From the NCBI GenBank assembly GCA_016124975.1, contig WGMP01000025.1, forward strand, positions 62,001-126,000: DNA of 64,000 bases, written 5' to 3'. The number at the start of each line of letters is the position of its first letter. The stretch's first letter is position 1. A model generated the notes under the pieces. That model made no database searches. It saw only the letters and a program-made list of their open reading frames with translations, and was not told the DNA's origin. A program made the translations under genes and the position numbers. Origin of the DNA: Phycisphaera sp. (GTDB lineage: Bacteria; Planctomycetota; Phycisphaerae; Phycisphaerales; SM1A02). Below, one piece after another: positions 51,267 to 63,185 of this stretch.

Positions 51267-51869
51267 CTATCGCCACACGCCAGGCGACGGCGGGTTCATG
51301 AAGAGCCGCTCGAAGGTGAGCCTGTCGATGCGCCAAGCGCCGTCCACGAGGCGCACGCGCACGATCCAGTCCGTCGGGACGGCGCCGGAGGACGAACTGG
51401 TGGTCGTCGAGCAGGAAAGCTCGACCTCGCCCGTCGTCCCGTCGAGCGTCACGGCCTCGAGGCGGCGGATGCGGTTCGACTCGATGCGATGGCGCCCCTC
51501 GAGCGCGCTGAGCGCGCGGCGGATGTCCTCGATCGCCGTGCCGGGGTTCTCGCGGCGGCCATAGTTGAGGACGGCGCCGTCGGCGAAGAGCGCGACCGCA
51601 GCGTCGGTCTCGGCGCGCTCCGCGTGCTCCACGAGCTGCCGCACGACCGCTGCAGCGTGCTCGCCGGGGGTCGTCACCAGGTTTCCCGTGAGGAGCGCCG
51701 CGAGCGCAAGCGCCGCGGCCGCGCCGCCCCCGACGAGGAGCGGCCGCCTGCGGTCCGACAGCCAGCGGACGAGGAGGAGCGCGGCGGCTACGCCGAGGGC
51801 GATCGCAAGGGGCCACGGGTTCTCGAAGAGCCAGCGCGTCAGCATCGCGGACGATTGTGGCACGATCAT
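51267..51869 (-). CDS. Membrane-anchored SnoaL/NTF2-like protein
   Basis: 200 residues from ATG 51869 (ATG 51845 is an alternative; neither has a ribosome site). Two membrane segments near the N-terminus (WPLAIALGVAAALLLVRWL and LLVGGGAAAALALAALLTG) precede a 120-residue cone-fold domain of the SnoaL/NTF2 type: VVRQLVEHAERAETDAAVALFADGA, IEDIRRALSALEGRHRI, VELSCSTTTSSSSG, DWIVRVRLVDGAWRIDRL. Such domains bind small hydrophobic ligands or act as scaffolds. No active-site pattern seen. Divergent from the Maf-type gene. Confidence 0.65.
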   Translation of the reverse strand: MIVPQSSAMLTRWLFENPWPLAIALGVAAALLLVRWLSDRRRPLLVGGGAAAALALAALLTGNLVTTPGEHAAAVVRQLVEHAERAETDAAVALFADGAVLNYGRRENPGTAIEDIRRALSALEGRHRIESNRIRRLEAVTLDGTTGEVELSCSTTTSSSSGAVPTDWIVRVRLVDGAWRIDRLTFERLFMNPPSPGVWR

Positions 51870-52035
51870 GCGTGGGAGGCGAATGGCGGGGGGCGCTTCG
51901 CGCATTTTCTGCATCGAATCCGCCCCCGCGGCCGATGAGCGGGGCGCGGCGGAGCCGCGTACCGAACGACGAGGCCGAGCGGCGGAGCCGCGCGGACGCT
52001 GCCTCGTCGCGGCCGCGTTCCGTGGCAGGTCCACG

Positions 52036-55000
52036 ATGGCAGCCCCACCTCACGCGCTTGAACCAGATCCAGCAGGGCGACCGCCCGAGGCATCGCCGCG
52101 CTCGTCGGGGGTGCAGGGGATCGGCGCGTCTGCGTCGGGTGCGACGGCCGTGCATCACGACCGAGGCGCCGCACTGGGCCACGCGGTGCGAACCGTCGAG
52201 ATGGAGTGCGGCGTTCCCGCCGCAAACGCCGTCCTCGAGCGGAACCTGCTCGCGCTCGGCCCGCGGAACGCAGACCTCGCGCGACAGATCCGCGCCGTGC
52301 CACCCGCCCCGCTCGAGTGGTCGACCGCCGCCGATGGTTCGCGCGTGGCAAGCCTCCAGGGCCGTGCCCTCGCCTCGAGGCACGCGCCGCGGCGCGAGGC
52401 CGAGACCTTTGCCGACGCGATCGACTACCGCGAGAAGGCCGTCGTGGTGATCGTCGGTTTCGGCCTCGGGTTCCATGTGACGGCCGTGTGCGAGCGGCTG
52501 AAGCGCACGGGGTTCGCCGCGGTGCTCGAGCCCGACCTCGGGCTGATGCGGGCGGTCCTCTCCGAGATCGACATCAGCGAGTCGCTGCGGCACTCGAACA
52601 TCCTCGTCTTCAGCGGCGCTGAGAATTCGGCCGTCCATGCGGAGCGCTTCGCAGGCACGGAGGGCTTTCTCATCCAGGGCGTGCAGATCGTGGAGCACGC
52701 GCCGAGCAAGGCGCGCATCGCAGAGGTGCGCGTGCCCGCGCAGGCCTGCGCGGACGGCAAGGAGACCGCGGAGGGCGCTCCCGTGCCGCCCGTGCGCGAG
52801 TTCTCCGCGCGCCTCACCGAGCTTGTGCGCATCGCGCGCGTGACGGCGTCGACGAACCTCGCGCGCAGCGCGCACACGATCCGGTCGGTCTTCCGCAACG
52901 CGCGGCGCTACGTGGGCGGCGAGACGCTCGCGCCCCTTGCGGGAACCGCGAAGGGCCGGCTCGGCGTCGTGGTCAGCGCGGGCCCGAGCCTGCGCCGCAA
53001 CCTGCATCTCCTCGCCGATCCCGGCGTCCGCGACCGCTGCCTCATCGTGGCGACGCCGACGGTGCTGAAGCCGCTGCTCGCAGACGGCATCCGCCCGCAC
53101 TTCGTGGCGGCGCTCGACTGGCACCACATCTCGACGCGCTTCTTCGAGGGCCTGACGGCGGAGGAGGTGCGCGATACCACCTTCGTGCTCGACCCACAGG
53201 TCAATCCCGCGGTGCCCGCGCACTATCCGGGCCCCGTGCGCGTGATCTCGGCGCCGCACCTCGACCTCGTGCTCGGTCCGATCGCGCGCGACACGGGCAG
53301 GCTTCCCGCGTGCGCCACGGTCGCGCATCTCTGCTACCAGATCGCGCGCTACCTCGGCTGCGATCCTGTGGCGCTGATCGGCCAGGACCTCGGCTTCACC
53401 GACGGCGTCTACTACGCGCGCGGCACGGCGATCGACGAGGTGTGGAGCCCCGAGCTCAACCCGTTCAACACGCTCGAGAACCTCGAGTGGACGCGCATCG
53501 TGCGCCACCGCGCGCATCTCGTGCGGCGCCGCGACATCCACGACCGCTCCATCTTCACTGACGGCCAGATGGAGGCGTACCTCCAGCGCTTCGAGTACTT
53601 CTTCGCGGAGGACGAGCGGCGCGGCCTGCGCACGATCGACGCGAGCGAGGGCGGCGTGCGCAAGCAGTGCACCGAGATCGCGACGCTGAAGGACACGCTC
53701 GAGCGCTTCGCGCGCGAGCCGCTTCCCGAGATTCCCGTGCCCGCGCGCGCCCTCGACGCGAACCGCCTCCGCAAGGCGCGCACGCGCGTCGAGGAGGTCA
53801 TCGATGCGGTGCGCATCATCCGCCAGGCGTCGCACCGCGCGTGCGACCTCCTCGAGCAGCTGACGGACGCGCGTCCGCGGCGCGAGCCCGAGGGAGCGCT
53901 GTGGAAGGCGCTCGACCGCGAGCGCGACAAGGTCTCGCGGCGGCTCGACACCCTCGCGCTCCTCGACGGATTCAGCACGCTCGGCGCGTTCAAGCGCGCG
54001 AAGGCGGACCGCCGCATCGAGTACACCCGCGGCCTCGACGAGGTCGGCAGGCAGAAGCTGCAGTTCGAGCGCGACATCGTGAACGTTCGCTGGATCGGCG
54101 AGGCCGCGGAGGAGTACCTGCGGCTTCTCGAGGAACTCAGCCATCGCCTCGGGCTTCCCGCGGACCTCGAGGAGCGCGGACTCTCCGCCGACGGCGATGC
54201 GGTCGAGGACGAGGCCGCGGTCGCGGCGCGATCGGATGGTGCGCTCGGGCGCGCGCTTGGCGAAGCGGAGGCCGCGGTCGAGGTGCGGGCGGCGTTCATC
54301 GTGCCCGTCGACCCCGTGCGCGGCGGCCTCGGCACGGCGCGCAGCCTGTCGGAACCCCTTGCGGGGCGGCCCGTCATCCAGTGGACGCTCGAGCGGCTGG
54401 GGCGGTCGCGCGAGGCGTCGGCGATCGTGCTGCTCGTGCCAGAGGGCTTCGACATCGAGCGGCTGATCGATAGGCGCCGCATCGGGCTTCCCGTCGAGAT
54501 CCACCGCACGGAGGGAAGCCCGCTCCGCGCGGCGCACCCGGCGGTCGCCGCTGGACGCCTCTGGAGCGACGCGAGTTGGCGCGGCGGAATCGCGGGCCTC
54601 ACGGCCTACGACGAGGTGCTCTCGCCCGAGTCGATGGCGCCCGCGATGGAGCGATTCGGGATCACCGCCGCCGTCGTGGTCGGGCCGGACTGGCCGCTCG
54701 TCTTCGTGGACGGGCCGTCGGGATGCGACGCCCTCGTGCGTCGCCACAGGCTGAAGCCCGACGCGCTGCGGCTCGTCTTCAATCAGTCGCCGCCAGGGCT
54801 CTCGGGCGTCCTCGTCGAGCGCTCGCTCATGCAGGAGTTCCGCCAGGGCGGACGCCACGCGACGATCGGCGCGCGGCTCGCCTACGAGCCGACGCGTGCG
54901 CAGCAGGATCCGATCTCGAAGGATCTGTGCGTGCAGATCGAGCAGCCCGTGCGTCGATCGCTCATCCGCGCCGTGTTCGACACGCCGCGCAGCATGACGC

Positions 55001-55980
55001 GCATGCGCCGCGCCATCGAGCCGCTTCTCTCAGGGCTCGACGCCGATGCCGCGCAGCGGGCGCTCGAGGCGCTCGAGGCGCGCGCCATCGTCGATCTGCT
55101 CGAGCACCAGCTCTACGACACGGTTCCGTACTTCACGCCGCAACACCTGATGGTCGAGCTCAACACGGGCCGCCAGGGGTCGGGCGCGTCGAGCCCGCAT
55201 CGCCACGGATCGCTGCAGCGGCCCGTCATGACCGAGCGCCGCTTTGCGCGGCTTGTCGAGCAGGTTGGCGAGAGCCGCGACTGCGTGATCAGCTTCGCGG
55301 GCGCGGGCGATCCGCTCTTCCACCCCGATCTGCCCGACTTCATCCGAATGGCGAAGGACGCCGGCGTGCGCGGCGTTCATGTGCGAACCGAGCTTCTCGC
55401 GTCGGCCGAGGCGATTGACGCCATGGTCGCGGCGGGCGTCGACGTGGTCTCCATCGAGGTCGACGCGGAGACGCCCGAGACCTATCGCCGCATGCACGGG
55501 GTCGACCGCTTCCGCCAGGTGATCGACGGGATCCAGCGCGTGTTCCTTGCGCGCACGCATCTCTCCGGCCCGAACGACGCCGCGGGCTTCGCGGTGCCTT
55601 GGATCGTGCCGCGCCTGCAGCGACGCGTCGAGAGCATCGAGGACATCGAGGCGTTCTTCGACCGCTGGCAGCACACGCTCGGGACGCCCGTCCTCGAGGG
55701 CGCGCCGCCGCACGACCCGTCGGCCGAGATGCCCGCGGACGGCCTTGCGAGCGCGCGCGCGCCGTCGCGCGTGATGTTCCGCGAGATGCTGCGGCGCATG
55801 CAGGTCCTCGCCGATGGATCCGTGCCGCTCTCGGAGCTTGACCTCCGCGGCGAGCGGATCTTCGCGCACATCGAGCGCGCGCCGCTCCTCCAGATCTGGC
55901 GCGATCTCGTGGCGCGACGCAAGCAGATCCGCCGCGACCACGGCGAGTCCCACCCCGACCTGAGGACGCGCATCCCATGA
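52036..55980 (+). CDS. Maf-type flagellin/surface glycosyltransferase fused to nucleotidyltransferase-like and cysteine-less radical-SAM/SPASM domains
   Basis: 1314 residues from ATG 52036; ATG 52201 is possible because homology begins at NAVLERNLLALGPRNADLA. Residues about 290-490 are the MAF_flag10/DUF115 domain (VVSAGPSLRRNLHLL with Ser314; IRPHFVAALDWHH; CDPVALIGQDLGFTDGVYYA near 448). A helical part follows. Residues about 750-940 look like an SpsF/cytidylyltransferase domain (FIVPVDPVRGGLGTARSLSE, LAGRPVIQWTLERL). Residues about 1035-1300 have the layout of a radical-SAM plus SPASM protein (AGDPLFHPDLPDFIRMAKDA, VDVVSIEVDAETPETYRRMHG, VLADGSVPLSELDLRGE, LLQIWRDL), but every cluster cysteine is replaced (VELNTGRQGSGASS; MQVLADG; PLSEL). 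Overlaps the cytidylyltransferase gene by four bases. It probably transfers the nonulosonic acid made by the next three genes to protein. Confidence 0.82.
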   Translation: MAAPPHALEPDPAGRPPEASPRSSGVQGIGASASGATAVHHDRGAALGHAVRTVEMECGVPAANAVLERNLLALGPRNADLARQIRAVPPAPLEWSTAADGSRVASLQGRALASRHAPRREAETFADAIDYREKAVVVIVGFGLGFHVTAVCERLKRTGFAAVLEPDLGLMRAVLSEIDISESLRHSNILVFSGAENSAVHAERFAGTEGFLIQGVQIVEHAPSKARIAEVRVPAQACADGKETAEGAPVPPVREFSARLTELVRIARVTASTNLARSAHTIRSVFRNARRYVGGETLAPLAGTAKGRLGVVVSAGPSLRRNLHLLADPGVRDRCLIVATPTVLKPLLADGIRPHFVAALDWHHISTRFFEGLTAEEVRDTTFVLDPQVNPAVPAHYPGPVRVISAPHLDLVLGPIARDTGRLPACATVAHLCYQIARYLGCDPVALIGQDLGFTDGVYYARGTAIDEVWSPELNPFNTLENLEWTRIVRHRAHLVRRRDIHDRSIFTDGQMEAYLQRFEYFFAEDERRGLRTIDASEGGVRKQCTEIATLKDTLERFAREPLPEIPVPARALDANRLRKARTRVEEVIDAVRIIRQASHRACDLLEQLTDARPRREPEGALWKALDRERDKVSRRLDTLALLDGFSTLGAFKRAKADRRIEYTRGLDEVGRQKLQFERDIVNVRWIGEAAEEYLRLLEELSHRLGLPADLEERGLSADGDAVEDEAAVAARSDGALGRALGEAEAAVEVRAAFIVPVDPVRGGLGTARSLSEPLAGRPVIQWTLERLGRSREASAIVLLVPEGFDIERLIDRRRIGLPVEIHRTEGSPLRAAHPAVAAGRLWSDASWRGGIAGLTAYDEVLSPESMAPAMERFGITAAVVVGPDWPLVFVDGPSGCDALVRRHRLKPDALRLVFNQSPPGLSGVLVERSLMQEFRQGGRHATIGARLAYEPTRAQQDPISKDLCVQIEQPVRRSLIRAVFDTPRSMTRMRRAIEPLLSGLDADAAQRALEALEARAIVDLLEHQLYDTVPYFTPQHLMVELNTGRQGSGASSPHRHGSLQRPVMTERRFARLVEQVGESRDCVISFAGAGDPLFHPDLPDFIRMAKDAGVRGVHVRTELLASAEAIDAMVAAGVDVVSIEVDAETPETYRRMHGVDRFRQVIDGIQRVFLARTHLSGPNDAAGFAVPWIVPRLQRRVESIEDIEAFFDRWQHTLGTPVLEGAPPHDPSAEMPADGLASARAPSRVMFREMLRRMQVLADGSVPLSELDLRGERIFAHIERAPLLQIWRDLVARRKQIRRDHGESHPDLRTRIP

Positions 55981-56714
55981 CGGACACCCACCGCGGGCTC
56001 GACGGGAACTCCACGCTTGCCGTCGTCATCGGACGCGCGGGAAGCAAGGGCCTTCCTCGCAAGAACGCGCTGCCCGTGGCGGGCGTGCCCATGATCGCGC
56101 GCACGGTCCGCTTTGCGCGCGCCTCGCAGGAGATCGACCGCGTCATCGTCTCGACCGACGGAGACGAGATCGCGCGGATCGCGCGCGACGAGGGCGTCGA
56201 GGTCTTCCTGCGGCCGGAGAGCGTGTCGCACGACCAGGCCACCGTCGACAGCGCGGTGCGCCACGCGGTCCTCGCGAGCGCATCGGCTGCGGAGACCGTC
56301 GTCATCCTCTACGGGAACGTGCCCGTGCGCCCCGCGGACCTCGCCGACCGCGCCGTGCGCGCGCTGCGCGAGACGGGCGCCGACAGCGTGCAGAGCTACT
56401 ACCGCGTGGGCAAGACGCATCCCTTCTGGATGTCGCGCCTCGACGAAGAAGGCCGCGTCTCGCAGTTCATCAAGAACCGCATCTATCGCCGTCAGGAGCT
56501 GCCGCCGCTCTTCATGCCCGATGGCGGCGTGATCGCCGTGCGCCGCGCGAGCCTCTTCGATGTGCGCGAGGGCGAGCCGCACGCGTTCTTCGGCCGCGAT
56601 CGCCGCGGCATCGAGACGCGCGAGGGCGATGTGATCGATGTCGACAGCGCGCTCGACCTCGCCGTCGCCGAGGCGATCCTCTCGGCGCGCGAGCGCGAAG
56701 GAGTTCCCGCATGA
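55977..56714 (+). CDS. neuA: CMP-nonulosonic acid (sialic/legionaminic-type) cytidylyltransferase
   Basis: 245 residues from ATG 55977, four-base overlap with the Maf-type gene (ATGA). NeuA/LegF/PseF family: IGRAGSKGLPRKNALPVAG nucleotide loop, PMIARTVRFARASQEIDRVIVSTD, HDQATVDSAVRHAVL, and the pattern SVQSYYRVGKTHPFWMSRL. It would load CMP onto a nine-carbon keto-sugar. An odd change is ILYGNVPVRPADL where most members have L-Q-P-T-S/ N-V-P-F-R, typical of the LegF/PseF-like set. Product (Neu5Ac, legionaminate or a related sugar) cannot be fixed from sequence alone. Confidence 0.9.
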   Translation: MTDTHRGLDGNSTLAVVIGRAGSKGLPRKNALPVAGVPMIARTVRFARASQEIDRVIVSTDGDEIARIARDEGVEVFLRPESVSHDQATVDSAVRHAVLASASAAETVVILYGNVPVRPADLADRAVRALRETGADSVQSYYRVGKTHPFWMSRLDEEGRVSQFIKNRIYRRQELPPLFMPDGGVIAVRRASLFDVREGEPHAFFGRDRRGIETREGDVIDVDSALDLAVAEAILSAREREGVPA

Positions 56715-57793
56715 ACTACGGCGTTTCTGCACCCACGCTCTCGATCGGCGGCCGCACCGTCGGCGCGGGCCACGCGCCCTTCATCATCGCCGAGATCGGC
56801 GTCAACCACGACGGCGACCCCGCGCGTGCGCGCGAGCTGGTGCACGCGGCGCGGCGCGCGGGCGCGGACGCCGCGAAGTTCCAGATGTTCGACGCCGCGA
56901 TGCTCATGTCGCGCGACGCGGTGCTTGCGGCCTACCAGCGCGAGCGTGGCGCGCGCGATCCGCGCGAGCTGCTGCAGGCGCTCCAGCTTCCGCCCGAGGC
57001 GCTCGGCGAACTGGCGGGTGAATGCGTGCGCGTCGGAATCGTGCCGATCGTCACGGTCTTCTCGATCCCGCTCGTCGAAATCGCGTGCGCGCAGCCGTGG
57101 CAGGCCTTCAAGACGGCCTCGCCCGACCTCGTCAACCTTCCGCTTCTGCGCGCGGTCGCCTCGCTCGGTCGCCCGCTCGTCGTGTCGACGGGCGCCGCCA
57201 CGCGCGAGGAGGTCGCGCAAGGGGCGCGCTGGCTCGAGCCGCACCGCGACATCGCGTTCCTCCAGTGCACCTCGAGCTATCCCGCGCGCGACGATTGCGC
57301 CGCGATCGGCGGCATGCACGAGATCGCGGCGATCACGGGGCGCGCGGTCGGATACAGCGACCACACGGCCTCGGTCGACACGGGCGCGATCGCCGTCGCG
57401 GCGGGTGCGTCGATCCTCGAGAAGCACCTCACCTACGACCGCGGCGCCGCAGGCCCCGACCACGCCGCGAGCCTCGATCCCAACCAGTTCGCGGCGTATG
57501 TGCAGCTCGCGCGGCGCGCGGCGCGCATGATGGGCGCACCGTCGAAGGAGCTGCAGGCGGTCGAGCGCGATGTGCGCGCGGTGAGCCGCCAGTCGCTCGT
57601 CGCCGCGCGCGACCTTCCGCTCGGGCATCTTGTGCGCCCCGAGGATCTCTGCGTGAAGCGCCCGGGCACGGGCATCTGCGCAAGCCGATTCGACGAGATC
57701 GTCGGCCGCAGGCTCGCGCGCGCGGTCGAGGCGGACCGCGTCCTCACCGAGGCGGACATCGCGTGGCCCGTCGCGGCGGGGACTGCGCCGTGA
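56711..57793 (+). CDS. neuB: N-acetylneuraminate/legionaminate synthase
   Basis: 360 residues from ATG 56711, four-base overlap on both sides. NeuB family: PFIIAEIGVNHDGDPARARELV, AAKFQMFDA, metal-binding and phosphoenolpyruvate pocket residues in FKTASPDLVNLPLLRAV, STGAATREEV, LQCTSSYPA, GYSDHTASVDTGAIAVAAGA, EKHLTYDRGAAGPDHAASLDP. The C-terminal 60 residues are an antifreeze-like SAF domain (SLVAARDLPLGHLVRPEDL, KRPGTGICASRFDEIVGRRLARAVEAD). It condenses an N-acyl hexosamine with PEP to give a nonulosonic acid. The neighbouring NeuC-type hydrolysing epimerase suggests the ManNAc- or legionaminate-type route rather than pseudaminate. Confidence 0.94.
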   Translation: MNYGVSAPTLSIGGRTVGAGHAPFIIAEIGVNHDGDPARARELVHAARRAGADAAKFQMFDAAMLMSRDAVLAAYQRERGARDPRELLQALQLPPEALGELAGECVRVGIVPIVTVFSIPLVEIACAQPWQAFKTASPDLVNLPLLRAVASLGRPLVVSTGAATREEVAQGARWLEPHRDIAFLQCTSSYPARDDCAAIGGMHEIAAITGRAVGYSDHTASVDTGAIAVAAGASILEKHLTYDRGAAGPDHAASLDPNQFAAYVQLARRAARMMGAPSKELQAVERDVRAVSRQSLVAARDLPLGHLVRPEDLCVKRPGTGICASRFDEIVGRRLARAVEADRVLTEADIAWPVAAGTAP

Positions 57794-58992
57794 ACGACGG
57801 AAAGCGGCGGAAGATCGCAGTTGTCACTGGAACGCGCGCGGAGTGGGGGCTGCTCTCACCCGTCTGCGATGCGATCGTCTCGCGCGGCGACCTCGCGCTC
57901 GAGGTCTGCGCGGGCGGCGCGCATCTCCTCCAACCGCCGGTCGCAGAAGACCGAGCCCTGCACCGCGCCGTCTTCGGCGAACCCCCGCCGTTCGAGCCGA
58001 CGATCATCTGGGTCGAGTCGAGCGGTCACCGCCCGCACCGCTTCGAGATGCAGCGCGCGGGCGAGACAGGCCGCCTCGCGGACGCGGCGGCGCTCGGTCG
58101 CGGCGTGTCAGCGCTGACGGAGATCTTCGCGCGCCTCGCGCCCGACATCGTGGTCGTCCTTGGCGATCGCATCGAGGCGTTTGCGGCCGCGAGCGCAGCG
58201 TCGATCGGCGGCATCCGCGTCGCGCACATCCACGGCGGCGACCGAGCGGAGGGCGTCGCAGACGAAGCGATGCGGCACGCCATCACGAAGCTCGCGCACA
58301 TTCACTTCGCTGCGAGCGCGGCGAGCGCTGCGCGCATCGCGCGGCTCGGCGAGGACGCGGCGCGGATCCATCTCGTGGGCTCGCCCGCGGTCGACGGGCT
58401 TGGCGCGATCCGGCCGCTGTCAGACCATGAGTACGCGGAGCTCGGCGCCCCTGACTTCGTCTTCCTCATGCATCCCGTGGGACGCCCCGACGCGGAGGAG
58501 GAGCGCGAGGCCCACGCGGTGCTCGAGGCGCTCGCCGCCCGCGGCCGCGTGACCGCGCTCGCGCCGAACTCGGACCCGGGCCGCAACGGCATCGCCCGCG
58601 CGATCGAGATCGTCGCAGAGCGAAGACGCACGCACTTCCGCGCCTTCAGGCACATCGAACGCGAGCTCTTCATCGCGCTCCTGAAGCACCCCGGCGTGCG
58701 CGCCATCGTCGGCAACTCGAGCGCGGGCCTCATCGAGTGCGCGGCCCTCGGCGTGCGCGCGGTCAACATCGGGTCGCGCCAGGCGGGGCGGGAACGCGCC
58801 GACAACGCGCGCGACGCCGCGTCTGCATGGGACGGCCTCGCGGAGGCCCTCGACACCCTCGACACCCTCGACTCTTGGCGCCCATCGGGCCGACACCCGT
58901 ACCTCGAGGCGGGCGCATCGACTCGGATCGCCGTGATTCTCGCCACCTGCGACTTCTCGGTCCACGGCCTCGCCAAGCGCTGCACCTACTGA
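57790..58992 (+). CDS. neuC: UDP-N-acetylglucosamine 2-epimerase, hydrolysing (NeuC/LegG type)
   Basis: 400 residues from GTG 57790, four-base overlap with neuB (GTGA). WecB/NeuC family with the hydrolysing-subgroup look: KIAVVTGTRAEWGLLSPVCDAI, VVVLGDRIEAFAAASAASIGGIRVAHIHGGDR, DEAMRHAITKLAHIHFAASAASAARI, LVGSPAVDGL, and IVGNSSAGLIECAALGVRAVNIGSRQAGRERADN. The GDR-E and IHGGD motifs are catalytic in the family. It releases ManNAc (or the bacillosamine-derived analogue in legionaminate synthesis), the substrate of the NeuB next door. The extra tail EALDTLDTLDSWRPSGRHPY is a short repeat unique to this copy. Last gene of the cassette. Confidence 0.92.
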   Translation: MNDGKRRKIAVVTGTRAEWGLLSPVCDAIVSRGDLALEVCAGGAHLLQPPVAEDRALHRAVFGEPPPFEPTIIWVESSGHRPHRFEMQRAGETGRLADAAALGRGVSALTEIFARLAPDIVVVLGDRIEAFAAASAASIGGIRVAHIHGGDRAEGVADEAMRHAITKLAHIHFAASAASAARIARLGEDAARIHLVGSPAVDGLGAIRPLSDHEYAELGAPDFVFLMHPVGRPDAEEEREAHAVLEALAARGRVTALAPNSDPGRNGIARAIEIVAERRRTHFRAFRHIERELFIALLKHPGVRAIVGNSSAGLIECAALGVRAVNIGSRQAGRERADNARDAASAWDGLAEALDTLDTLDSWRPSGRHPYLEAGASTRIAVILATCDFSVHGLAKRCTY

Positions 58993-59199: not shown

Positions 59200-60102
59200 A
59201 TGCCCGAACAGATCACACCAGCCGCGAGTGCGGGCGACTGCATGCAGGTTGCGAACGCGGCCGTGAAGCAGCTCAGCCACATCGCGACCTTGCCGGAGGT
59301 GACGCTCGGGATCATCGAGCTCGTCGAGAACCCGCGTTCGAGCGCCTCCGCGCTGAACGCGCTCATCCAGCGCGACCCCGCGCTCTCCGCGCGCGTCCTC
59401 CGCGTCGTCAACAGCGCCTTCTACGGACTTCCGTCGCAACTTGGCTCGATCAACCGCGCGATCTCGCTCCTCGGCCTCAACGCCGTCAAGAACATCGCCA
59501 TCGCCGCCAGCCTCGCCAAGCTCTTCCGCGGCGGCGCGCTCTGCGACCGCTTCGACGCGAAGGAACTGTGGACGCACTCGCTCGCAGTCGGCACGGCTGC
59601 GCGCATGCTCGCAAGCGCGGGATCGAAGATTCCCGCCGACGAGGCGTTCCTCGCGGGTCTCATGCACGACATCGGCATCGTCGTAGAACTGCAGACCGAC
59701 CGCGCCAAGCTCGCGCGTGTCTTCGCCGACATGCAGTTCGACGCGGAGGGCCAGCCCCTGATCGACTTCCGCATGGTCGAGCGCGGCATCTTCGGCGCCG
59801 ACCATTGCCACTTCGGTCAGGCCCTGTGCGAGCAGTGGAAGTTCACGAAGGGGCTTCGCGCCGCGTGCGGTTTCCACCACGAGCCACGCCAGGCCGAGGC
59901 CTCGATGCAGCCGATCGCGTGGCTCATCTATGTCGCAGACCGCGTCGCGGCCACCGAAGGCGCCTTCCGCGCCGACATCCTGGGGCAGGGCGTCCCGCAC
60001 GAGGCGCTCGATGCCCTCGGAATCGGCGTCCCGCAGCTCCAGGAGTGCCTGGCGAGCCTTCACAAGGCGCTCGACGAGGCACGCGCGACCATGAACGCGT
60101 GA
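59200..60102 (+). CDS. HDOD-domain signalling protein
   Basis: 300 residues from ATG 59200 with GGAGGT upstream. HDOD domain from about residue 20 to 225: LPEVTLGIIELVENPRSSASALNALIQRDPALSARVLRVVNSAFYG-like block, INRAISLLGLNAVKNIAIAASLAKLF, LWTHSLAVGTAARMLA, DEAFLAGLMHDIGIVV. HDOD proteins lack nucleotide hydrolysis activity in most cases and act as signalling adaptors, often in motility or surface-attachment control; here several HD residues (H in LWTHS, HD in MHDIG) are retained, so hydrolase activity is not excluded. No other output domain. It lies 207 bases after the nonulosonate cassette and is transcribed separately. Confidence 0.9.
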   Translation: MPEQITPAASAGDCMQVANAAVKQLSHIATLPEVTLGIIELVENPRSSASALNALIQRDPALSARVLRVVNSAFYGLPSQLGSINRAISLLGLNAVKNIAIAASLAKLFRGGALCDRFDAKELWTHSLAVGTAARMLASAGSKIPADEAFLAGLMHDIGIVVELQTDRAKLARVFADMQFDAEGQPLIDFRMVERGIFGADHCHFGQALCEQWKFTKGLRAACGFHHEPRQAEASMQPIAWLIYVADRVAATEGAFRADILGQGVPHEALDALGIGVPQLQECLASLHKALDEARATMNA

Positions 60103-61709: not shown

Positions 61710-63185
61710 TCAGGGCGCGCTTGGCGCGGACGACGCGCCGCCCGTGTCGATGGATCGCTCGGCCGCCGCTGCGATCGCCGCTGCGATCTGCGCCGCGAGC
61801 GACTCATGGGAGCTGCGGTCGAACTGGTCCGCGCGCTCGAGCGCGCCGATCGTCTCGAGAAGCTGCGTGAAGCGCGCGGCGACGGCGTCGTCTCCCGTCG
61901 CCACCACGCCGCGCACGCGCGCGACCGCGTCGCGCACGGCCGCGCGCCGCTTCGCCTGGATCTCGAGGAGCCTGATGCGCGCCGCGAGCTCCTCGAGCAC
62001 CGCGAGGTCGGAGCGGTCGACGAGCCGCGGCAGAATGAGATCGGCCGCGGCGGACGCGTCGCGGGCGAGCGGCTCGACGCGGCGGAAGGCGAGGTCGACC
62101 GCCTCGAGGATCGCCTCGTCGGTTCCCGGCGCGCTCGCGGGAAGGCCGAGCATGCTCTCGACGAGCTCCGCAAGGAGCCGCTCGTCGTCGAAGAGCTCTG
62201 GATGCACCGAGCGCTGCCACTCCTCGACGAGCCTGCGGCCCTCGCGCGCGGGAAGCCGTCCGCGCAGCCTGCGCAGCGACTCGAAGTGGAGGTCGCGGAT
62301 CGCAAGCTCGCTCGCGAACTCCGCGTCGTCGACTTCGGCCAGCCGCGCCTCGGTCGCGCGCACGGGCTCCTCGAGACCATATCGCCAGAGCGAACCCGCC
62401 TCGGTCTCGATGCGTGCGCGGGCGAGGTCGCCTGCCGACAGGATGTCCGCACGCTTCGCAAGCAGCGTGCCGAGCTGCTCGGCGTGCGCGACAAGGACCG
62501 GCTCGATCGTGGCCGCGACCTCCGACGAGAGCTCGAGCCGCGCCACGAGCTCGAAAAGCGTCAGCTTCGTCGACGGCAGCAGCCCGTCGCGGGGAAGGCG
62601 TTCCGCGAGCCAGTCGACGCGCTCGCCCACGAACGCGAGGCGACGCGCGGGGTCTGCCGCGCGCTCGACCGCCACGAGGAGCGTGCGCTCGGCGGCCGCG
62701 AGGCGTGCGAGCGCCGCCTCGCGCAGCACGAGCGTCTGCACGAGCTCGGGGTTGTGGCGCGGCACGAAGATCTCGCGCGCGCCGTCGAAGCGGTAGGCGG
62801 CGGGGAGCCTGTCGCGGATCCGCCCCGACGCTGCCTTGATCGCGGCGTCTGCGGACTCCCGATAGGCGGCGTAGCTGGCGGCGAGCTCGGCATTCGCGGC
62901 GAGCGCAGGATCCACCGCCTTGAGAAACGCCGTGAAGCGCGCCTCCGACATCGGTTGTGGAAGCGCGGCCAGGTCGAGCTTCTGCTGGGCCTCGGCGCGC
63001 GCACGCTCGCGTTCGTCGCGCGGCGCGTCCTTCCTCGGCTGGGCCGCGGCGGAAGGCTCCGCGCGTGGCGTCTGCGTCTGCGGCCGGGCCTGCACCGGCG
63101 TCTGCGTCTGCGCGCCGGCCGACGCCTGCCACGCGAGCGCGGCACCGACAAGCGCGGCCCGAACGAGCGAGCGGGGGCTGGCCAT
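61710..63185 (-). CDS. Secreted helical protein of unknown function
   Basis: 491 residues from ATG 63185 (ATG 63209 possible). Signal peptide ends near ASAGAQT, followed by a low-complexity T/P/Q linker with TQTPVQARPQTQTPRAEP. The mature part is almost entirely helical and Ala/Glu/Arg/Leu-rich (LDLAALPQPMSEARFTAFLKAVDP, SYAAYRESADAAIKAAS, RTLLVAVERAADPARRLAFVGERV), likely several helical repeats of about 100 residues. The opening MSEARFTAFLKAVDPALAANAELAASYAAY echoes the 9398 protein in layout (LNLTEDQ..VLETLFVDYEAAF), so the two may be distant relatives. No known family. Confidence 0.7.
   Translation of the reverse strand: MASPRSLVRAALVGAALAWQASAGAQTQTPVQARPQTQTPRAEPSAAAQPRKDAPRDERERARAEAQQKLDLAALPQPMSEARFTAFLKAVDPALAANAELAASYAAYRESADAAIKAASGRIRDRLPAAYRFDGAREIFVPRHNPELVQTLVLREAALARLAAAERTLLVAVERAADPARRLAFVGERVDWLAERLPRDGLLPSTKLTLFELVARLELSSEVAATIEPVLVAHAEQLGTLLAKRADILSAGDLARARIETEAGSLWRYGLEEPVRATEARLAEVDDAEFASELAIRDLHFESLRRLRGRLPAREGRRLVEEWQRSVHPELFDDERLLAELVESMLGLPASAPGTDEAILEAVDLAFRRVEPLARDASAAADLILPRLVDRSDLAVLEELAARIRLLEIQAKRRAAVRDAVARVRGVVATGDDAVAARFTQLLETIGALERADQFDRSSHESLAAQIAAAIAAAAERSIDTGGASSAPSAP

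Follow-up and report, generated by a model that had tools for sequence, protein, structure and literature searches.

NeuC, NeuB and NeuA act in succession to yield CMP-nonulosonate, and Maf glycosyltransferases pass the sugar to flagellin. PMC11339370 gives part of this background on the CMP-nonulosonate pathway and on transfer by Maf to flagellin, and describes a central Maf domain accompanied by an N-terminal Rossmann-like and a C-terminal helical part. The flagellin glycosyltransferases of Magnetospirillum magneticum (structure 5MU5), Clostridium botulinum and Campylobacter resemble the locus considered here in having a PF01973 domain with such flanks, nonulosonate genes alongside and flagellins encoded in the genome. 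This locus occupies positions 52036-58992, on the forward strand, of a 64,000-nucleotide stretch of DNA (hereafter the window; positions 62,001 to 126,000 of contig WGMP01000025.1, assembly GCA_016124975.1) from Phycisphaera sp., a member of the planctomycete order Phycisphaerales. It consists of four genes, encoding a fused Maf protein and NeuA-, NeuB- and NeuC-type enzymes, chained by three 4-base overlaps. In the accessible portions of the literature on known Maf proteins, no mention was found of a partner that combines the folds of a CMP-sugar synthetase and a radical-SAM enzyme; here such a partner is fused to Maf, and in relatives it adjoins it. Glycosylation by Maf is already known, and the partner, an apparent pseudoenzyme, seems to be the new element; no description of it was found in the open-access literature, a search outside which most subscription papers lie. 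The reading we consider probable is a system for O-glycosylation of flagellin with a nonulosonate, equipped with a pseudoenzyme subunit.

A Pfam profile search located PF01973 at residues 286-456 of the window protein (107.8 bits against a cut-off of 34.6), where an earlier note, made from the DNA letters alone, had anticipated a Maf/DUF115 match at residues 290-490; this is the single match to the family in the whole genome. An AlphaFold2 model of the Maf half (pLDDT 84.1) gave 5mu5 as its sole match below E 1e-3 in a Foldseek comparison with the PDB (E 9.4e-18, 746 columns including gaps, TM-scores 0.46 and 0.49, rmsd 11.1), and by this structural match the three-part fold of the solved Maf is present. 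A Maf sequence profile built from 25 sequences, that of the window included, matched the same solved structure at 1.3e-13 and archaeal MptE (8sd5) at 9.2e-9. Against NF050051, the NCBIfam model of the PseD flagellin modification protein, the Maf protein scored 42.6 bits, far short of the cut-off of 670. The PF01973 domain, the fold of 5mu5 and the Neu family matches described below bear out the earlier claim that this planctomycete pairs a Maf-type transferase with nonulosonate genes, and protein O-glycosylation is supported as the best reading of the assembly; the claim of four genes joined by 4-base overlaps likewise agrees with the open frames. Homologous proteins align to the fused protein only from about residue 60, so translation more likely starts with the ATG at 52201 (residue 56), leaving about 1259 residues.

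The second half of the fused protein (the partner half) is composed of two enzyme folds from which the catalytic motifs are missing. In its structural model (pLDDT 82.8, pTM 0.87) the first domain has a cytidylyltransferase fold (6oew, Z 21.0, rmsd 2.9, 224 residues aligned; KdsB, Z about 15), evident by structure comparison and not picked up by Pfam, which gave no PF02348 match in the window protein; a profile comparison also relates it to the adjacent NeuA (hhalign E 1.1e-6, probability 91). This nucleotidyltransferase-like (NTase-like) domain is thus akin to the SpsF, KdsB and NeuA cytidylyltransferases in fold and in its profile similarity to NeuA, but differs from them by the missing CTP-binding motif. 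Among 65 partner sequences, window included (64 distinct, L083 and L135 being identical), 62 reach the site in question (L040, L105 and L107 do not), and R-x-G-S-x-G-x-P-x-K occurs in none of them; a bare R-x-G-S without the remainder is found in seven. In 15 of 15 aligned NeuA sequences the motif positions are invariant.

The second domain combines a radical-SAM barrel with a SPASM fold (DesII, Z 19.7; MoaA, Z 19.1; BtrN, Z 18.9), and its Radical_SAM Pfam match, at residues 1062-1169, starts only at profile position 25. It shares barrel and SPASM fold with BtrN, DesII and PqqE but differs from these in the absence of CxxxCxxC, which is found in none of the 65 sequences. A scan of named genomes gave 41 loci, 39 of which were counted as planctomycetal (including L116, titled only "bacterium"); the motif is absent from all 39, and the two loci left out, L117 and L118, carry it. 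At the site expected for the cluster loop, relatives have instead a conserved stretch resembling PREIEIELTT. The four SPASM cysteines are complete in 45 of the 65 sequences (L112 and L115, which end ahead of them, being counted among the other 20), in none of the 13 fused forms, and all are missing from the window protein. Of the nine unfused sequences from the window's order, four retain every one of these cysteines, three retain three, and two retain one or none; the fusion goes with loss of these cysteines. Judged by its sequence, the second half appears to be a double pseudoenzyme, and it may lack chemistry altogether. Radical chemistry was rejected as its activity, CxxxCxxC being absent. 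The SpsF-like nucleotidyltransferase and radical-SAM-like domains of the earlier note therefore survive as folds; the CTP motif, the cluster motif and, in the window protein, the SPASM cysteines that such enzymes would carry do not accompany them.

Elsewhere the partner is generally a gene of its own. In 36 of the 39 planctomycetal loci a Maf match lies just upstream of it on the same strand; of the remainder, L080 has no Maf within reach, and L105 and L107 start inside the partner gene. Maf and partner genes overlap by 4 bases in L083, L084, L087, L091, L092 and L109, as delimited by a simple home-made gene caller. In three loci (L083:10708-13445, L087:4053-6771 and L092:10755-13473) no neu genes are nearby, and behind the Maf-partner pair come an Hsp70-like gene (recognized by eye from its start, GIDLGTTFS) and a second, similar-looking gene. 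Within the window's order the two are fused in 11 genomes, its own included, present as an eroded fusion in two flagellin-less genomes, adjacent genes in eight, and on different contigs in one (G111). NeuA is the next gene after the partner in all but one of the order's 20 flagellated genomes, the exception again being G111. The gene order, whose complete lack of conservation would have spoken against the earlier note, is conserved in relatives. A branch with support 97/98 sets the 11 fused Maf sequences apart from the others, and the fusion takes one change on the tree, where shuffles average 9.6; the tree comprised 35 rows hand-picked from the Maf rows, and the intended outgroup did not fall on one side of a branch. 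By this tree the fusion arose once, in a single lineage, from two genes that elsewhere lie separate and side by side.

The partner accompanies Maf across a much wider range of genomes. In a sample of 150 genomes of the class, flagellin was found in 106, Maf in 72 and a full-length partner in 73, the last being those whose match extends into the NTase-like half; 20 more of the 93 genomes with a partner match were matched in the C-terminal region alone. All 72 Maf genomes also have the partner, and a single genome has the partner without Maf. The presence of the partner in every Maf genome of this sample, usually directly behind Maf and in one lineage fused to it, points to a missing component. 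A second sample, of 294 genomes of the phylum and overlapping the first, gave Maf in 31 of 31 genomes with a full-length partner; this partner count, taken at E 1e-40, was supplemented with G034, G095 and G172, in which the partner was known from the class scan.

Flagellin in turn accompanies Maf, being present in 70 of the 72 Maf genomes of the class (Fisher p 4e-13, a value that ignores shared ancestry). In the window's order (24 genomes) Maf, partner, NeuB and NeuC are all present in 20 of 20 flagellated genomes and in none of the four that lack flagellin. The two Maf genomes without flagellin are among these four: G287 and G421, of the window's own family, have a partial Maf in a fused frame and are without matches to NeuB and to NeuC at E 1e-15. 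Of the other two, G220 has none of the four components, and G403 has only matches to NeuB and NeuC, at 30% and 32% identity, with neither Maf nor partner. Contigs C7 and C11 of the window's genome together carry five Flagellin_N (PF00669) matches, including a contig-end fragment and one within an 855-residue FlgL-like frame, and genes resembling FliW, CsrA and FlgK were read by eye near them. A flagellum-less host, considered as an explanation, was ruled out by these flagellins. The contig carrying the window (C51) has no flagellin match, and no scan for other motility genes was made in the window; the earlier statement that no flagellin is present holds for the window and fails for the genome. 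With flagellins encoded in the genome, and with the system following flagellin across genomes, the acceptor formerly given as a surface or flagellar protein can be narrowed to flagellin as the most likely one.

The three Neu enzymes are placed in their families more readily than in a particular pathway. NeuC scored 276.3 bits with TIGR03568, above the cut-off of 235.9, and its best PDB match was the diacetylbacillosamine 2-epimerase 5xvs (1.1e-41), with human GNE (4zht, 2.5e-38) close to it. Membership of NeuB in its family is clear (PF03102, 199 bits); its scores lie below the cut-offs of both the neuraminate model TIGR03569 (282.7 against 399.65) and the pseudaminate model TIGR03586 (187.6 against 340.25). 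Its best PDB match was SpsE (1vli, 6.9e-40), followed by SiaC (2wqp, 1.7e-39). The NeuB-like SpsE belongs to the sps legionaminic acid pathway of Bacillus subtilis (PMC7439481). The sps pathway serves the spore crust and not flagella, and is not known to include a Maf. A gene group lying some 70 kb upstream (C51:44431-45978 in the genome of the window, L075:9751-12003) comprises a LegC-like DegT aminotransferase (C51:44899-45978; 345.4 bits against a cut-off of 420), a generic NAD-dependent epimerase and, read by eye, an asparagine-synthase-like gene; the best match in the genome to the PseB model reached 140 against a cut-off of 407.75. Legionaminate is one candidate for the sugar, and the earlier view that the exact sugar could not be assigned was sound: NeuB falls under both equivalog cut-offs and NeuC is near 5xvs and 4zht alike.

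Under the reading proposed above, NeuC would convert a UDP-sugar to a 2-epimerised free sugar, NeuB would combine this with phosphoenolpyruvate into a nine-carbon acid, and NeuA would turn the acid into a CMP-sugar, whose sugar residue the Maf half would then transfer to Ser or Thr of the flagellins of the genome, in the cytoplasm and ahead of export. That the donor carries a nonulosonate we regard as very likely, and flagellin is likely to be the acceptor. The second half would descend from a Maf partner protein of the spiro-SPASM-like kind, a CMP-sugar-synthetase fold minus the CTP motif together with a radical-SAM/SPASM barrel minus the cluster. As a subunit it could dock or position NeuA, its CMP-sugar or flagellin, with neither radical nor cytidylyl-transfer chemistry; such a non-catalytic role is a serious possibility that falls a little short of probable. 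In one clade of the order the partner has become covalently fused to Maf, in forms without the SPASM metal ligands.

Several observations weigh against this reading, and some of them favour the chief alternative, in which the second half is an active enzyme whose NTase-like domain has a remodelled active site and uses it to activate or transfer a further sugar (such as the second of a compound flagellin glycan), so that the glycan would be longer. The domain has the CMP-sugar-synthetase fold and a nearly invariant, unusual R-x-W-x-x-x-x-W-R-G-G followed by D-E (WRGG itself is kept in 57 of the 65 sequences), as well as an invariant D that is followed by a nearly invariant T; residues conserved to this degree may permit catalysis of another kind. 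In the flagellin-less G421 and G287 (loci L120 and L121), moreover, the fused frame is open and the partner half well matched while Maf is eroded, and a partner half that outlasts Maf may have an independent role. On the other side, none of the 62 partner sequences has the CTP motif of all 15 aligned NeuA, and the overlap-joined unit contains no further glycan gene; an active enzyme seems to us unlikely, if still worth serious attention. Apart from this alternative, a non-catalytic subunit tied to Maf and flagellin must also accommodate the genus of L126-L129 (G002, G034, G095 and G172), in which the barrel half of the fused protein is reduced to scraps and Maf and NeuA match well, and the 36 genomes of the class that have flagellin and no Maf. 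In the phylum sample 21 of 52 Maf genomes lack a full-length partner at E 1e-40, a count that is an upper bound, as G029 has a 565-residue frame matched in the C-terminal half only; the partner goes with Maf, and the reverse does not always hold. The contrast in NeuB and NeuC is soft, the matches being at 34 and 36% identity in flagellated G111 against 30 and 32% in flagellin-less G403. All of the co-occurrence figures ignore shared ancestry, and loss events within the order are few.

That the cassette decorates a surface polysaccharide, an S-layer or another protein in place of flagellin could be argued from the separation of cassette and flagellin matches on different contigs, from the remnants kept by flagellin-less G287 and G421, and from the breadth of PF01973, which also takes in archaeal pterin enzymes (8sd5); nonulosonates are common in surface glycans as well. 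Such a target is nevertheless improbable, given the association of Maf with flagellin in the class, the complete set in flagellated genomes alone in the order, and the Maf glycosyltransferase as by far the best structural match. A radical-SAM enzyme fused to Maf and performing radical chemistry on the sugar or on flagellin would suit the Radical_SAM match and the proximity of the barrel to DesII and BtrN, but is already contradicted by the universal absence of the cluster motif from partner sequences and planctomycetal loci, and by the loss of the SPASM cysteines from the window protein, and can scarcely be credited. As Maf and partner are two genes in relatives, several with 4-base overlaps, a small error in assembly or annotation could join or split them; a fusion common to eleven genomes, with Maf parts that form one clade, makes an artefact of this sort extremely unlikely.

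The closest named family to the partner is spiro-SPASM (TIGR04321), which matches all 28 members of the partner alignment, the highest number among the 25 listed NCBIfam models, all scores being far under the curated cut-off of 250 bits (54.9 for the window protein and 158.4 for the best planctomycete, over model positions 75-506 of 510). No paper on spiro-SPASM was found in the open-access literature. Its name presumably points to spirochaetes, where the CMP-KDO-synthetase-like gene TP0283 adjoins TP0284/TP0285. A spirochaete SPASM protein, TPASS_0285, has a table entry in PMC4403809, and a merged TP0284/TP0285 gene is mentioned in PMC3265458; the accessible part of a paper on Leptospira nonulosonates (PMC3438082) makes no mention of SPASM or SpsF. 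A plasmid search with the partner as query returned 25 records, none covering 80% of it; the 20 matches listed, Brachyspira among them, hit only the radical-SAM half. The Brachyspira plasmid NC_012226.1 (L139) carries a run of adjoining radical SAM/SPASM genes with a HAD-family gene, in which no relation to the cassette was seen. We suggest tentatively, as an extension rather unlikely to hold in full, that the spiro-SPASM-like family is a dedicated subunit, formed of two dead enzymes, of a two-component class of Maf in Planctomycetota and perhaps Spirochaetota; it would capture NeuA or its product by mimicry of a synthetase subunit, and the fusion would have made the SPASM metal site dispensable.

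Coordinates of the cassette, of the domains of its fused protein and of two neighbouring genes are collected in the table. The HDOD gene follows NeuC in 8 of the 20 examined relatives with NeuC near a Maf-partner pair (L078, L079, L104, L105, L119, L123, L125 and L138), and its product is a possible regulator of the glycosylation system. A stretch resembling the divergent SnoaL-like gene adjoins the cluster in L119, L121 and L040, and in L122 at E 0.001 only.

Table. Features of the nonulosonate cassette and its surroundings, in window coordinates.
Feature	Coordinates	Strand	Basis and remarks
Fused Maf, pseudo-CMP-sugar-synthetase and pseudo-radical-SAM protein	52036..55980	+	1314 aa from ATG 52036; likelier about 1259 aa from ATG 52201
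Maf glycosyltransferase half: N-terminal Rossmann-like part, central PF01973 (52891-53403), C-terminal helical part	52201..54255	+	PF01973 6.7e-31; AlphaFold2 model; Foldseek 5mu5
Nucleotidyltransferase-like domain, CMP-sugar-synthetase fold, without CTP-binding motif	54286..55032 (borders approximate)	+	6oew match; hhalign to adjacent NeuA
Radical-SAM/SPASM-like domain without CxxxCxxC; four SPASM cysteines also gone in this lineage	55129..55977 (borders approximate)	+	Pfam, fold, motif scan
NeuA-type CMP-nonulosonate synthetase, CTP motif RAGSKGLPRK kept	55977..56714	+	PF02348 1.2e-21; 1eyr 2.5e-23
NeuB-type nonulosonate synthase with SAF domain	56711..57793	+	PF03102 1.1e-58; 1vli, 2wqp
NeuC-type hydrolysing UDP-sugar 2-epimerase, GTG start	57790..58992	+	TIGR03568; 5xvs 1.1e-41
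HDOD-domain protein, probable associated gene, fifth in the row	59200..60102	+	PF08668 6.4e-52
SnoaL-like gene, divergent, with hydrophobic stretch	51267..52034	-	PF13577 24.1 bits, cut-off 24; link to cluster uncertain

PMC11339370 states that no acceptor sequon of Maf is known and that the roles of its outer domains are unclear. The association documented here suggests that a Maf-type transferase can have an unrecognised partner. The partner itself presents a natural series from a pair of enzymes to a scaffold, with catalytic motifs gone wherever it was seen, metal ligands lost from the fused forms and the barrel eroding in one genus, and it offers a function to seek among proteins so far labelled only spiro-SPASM.

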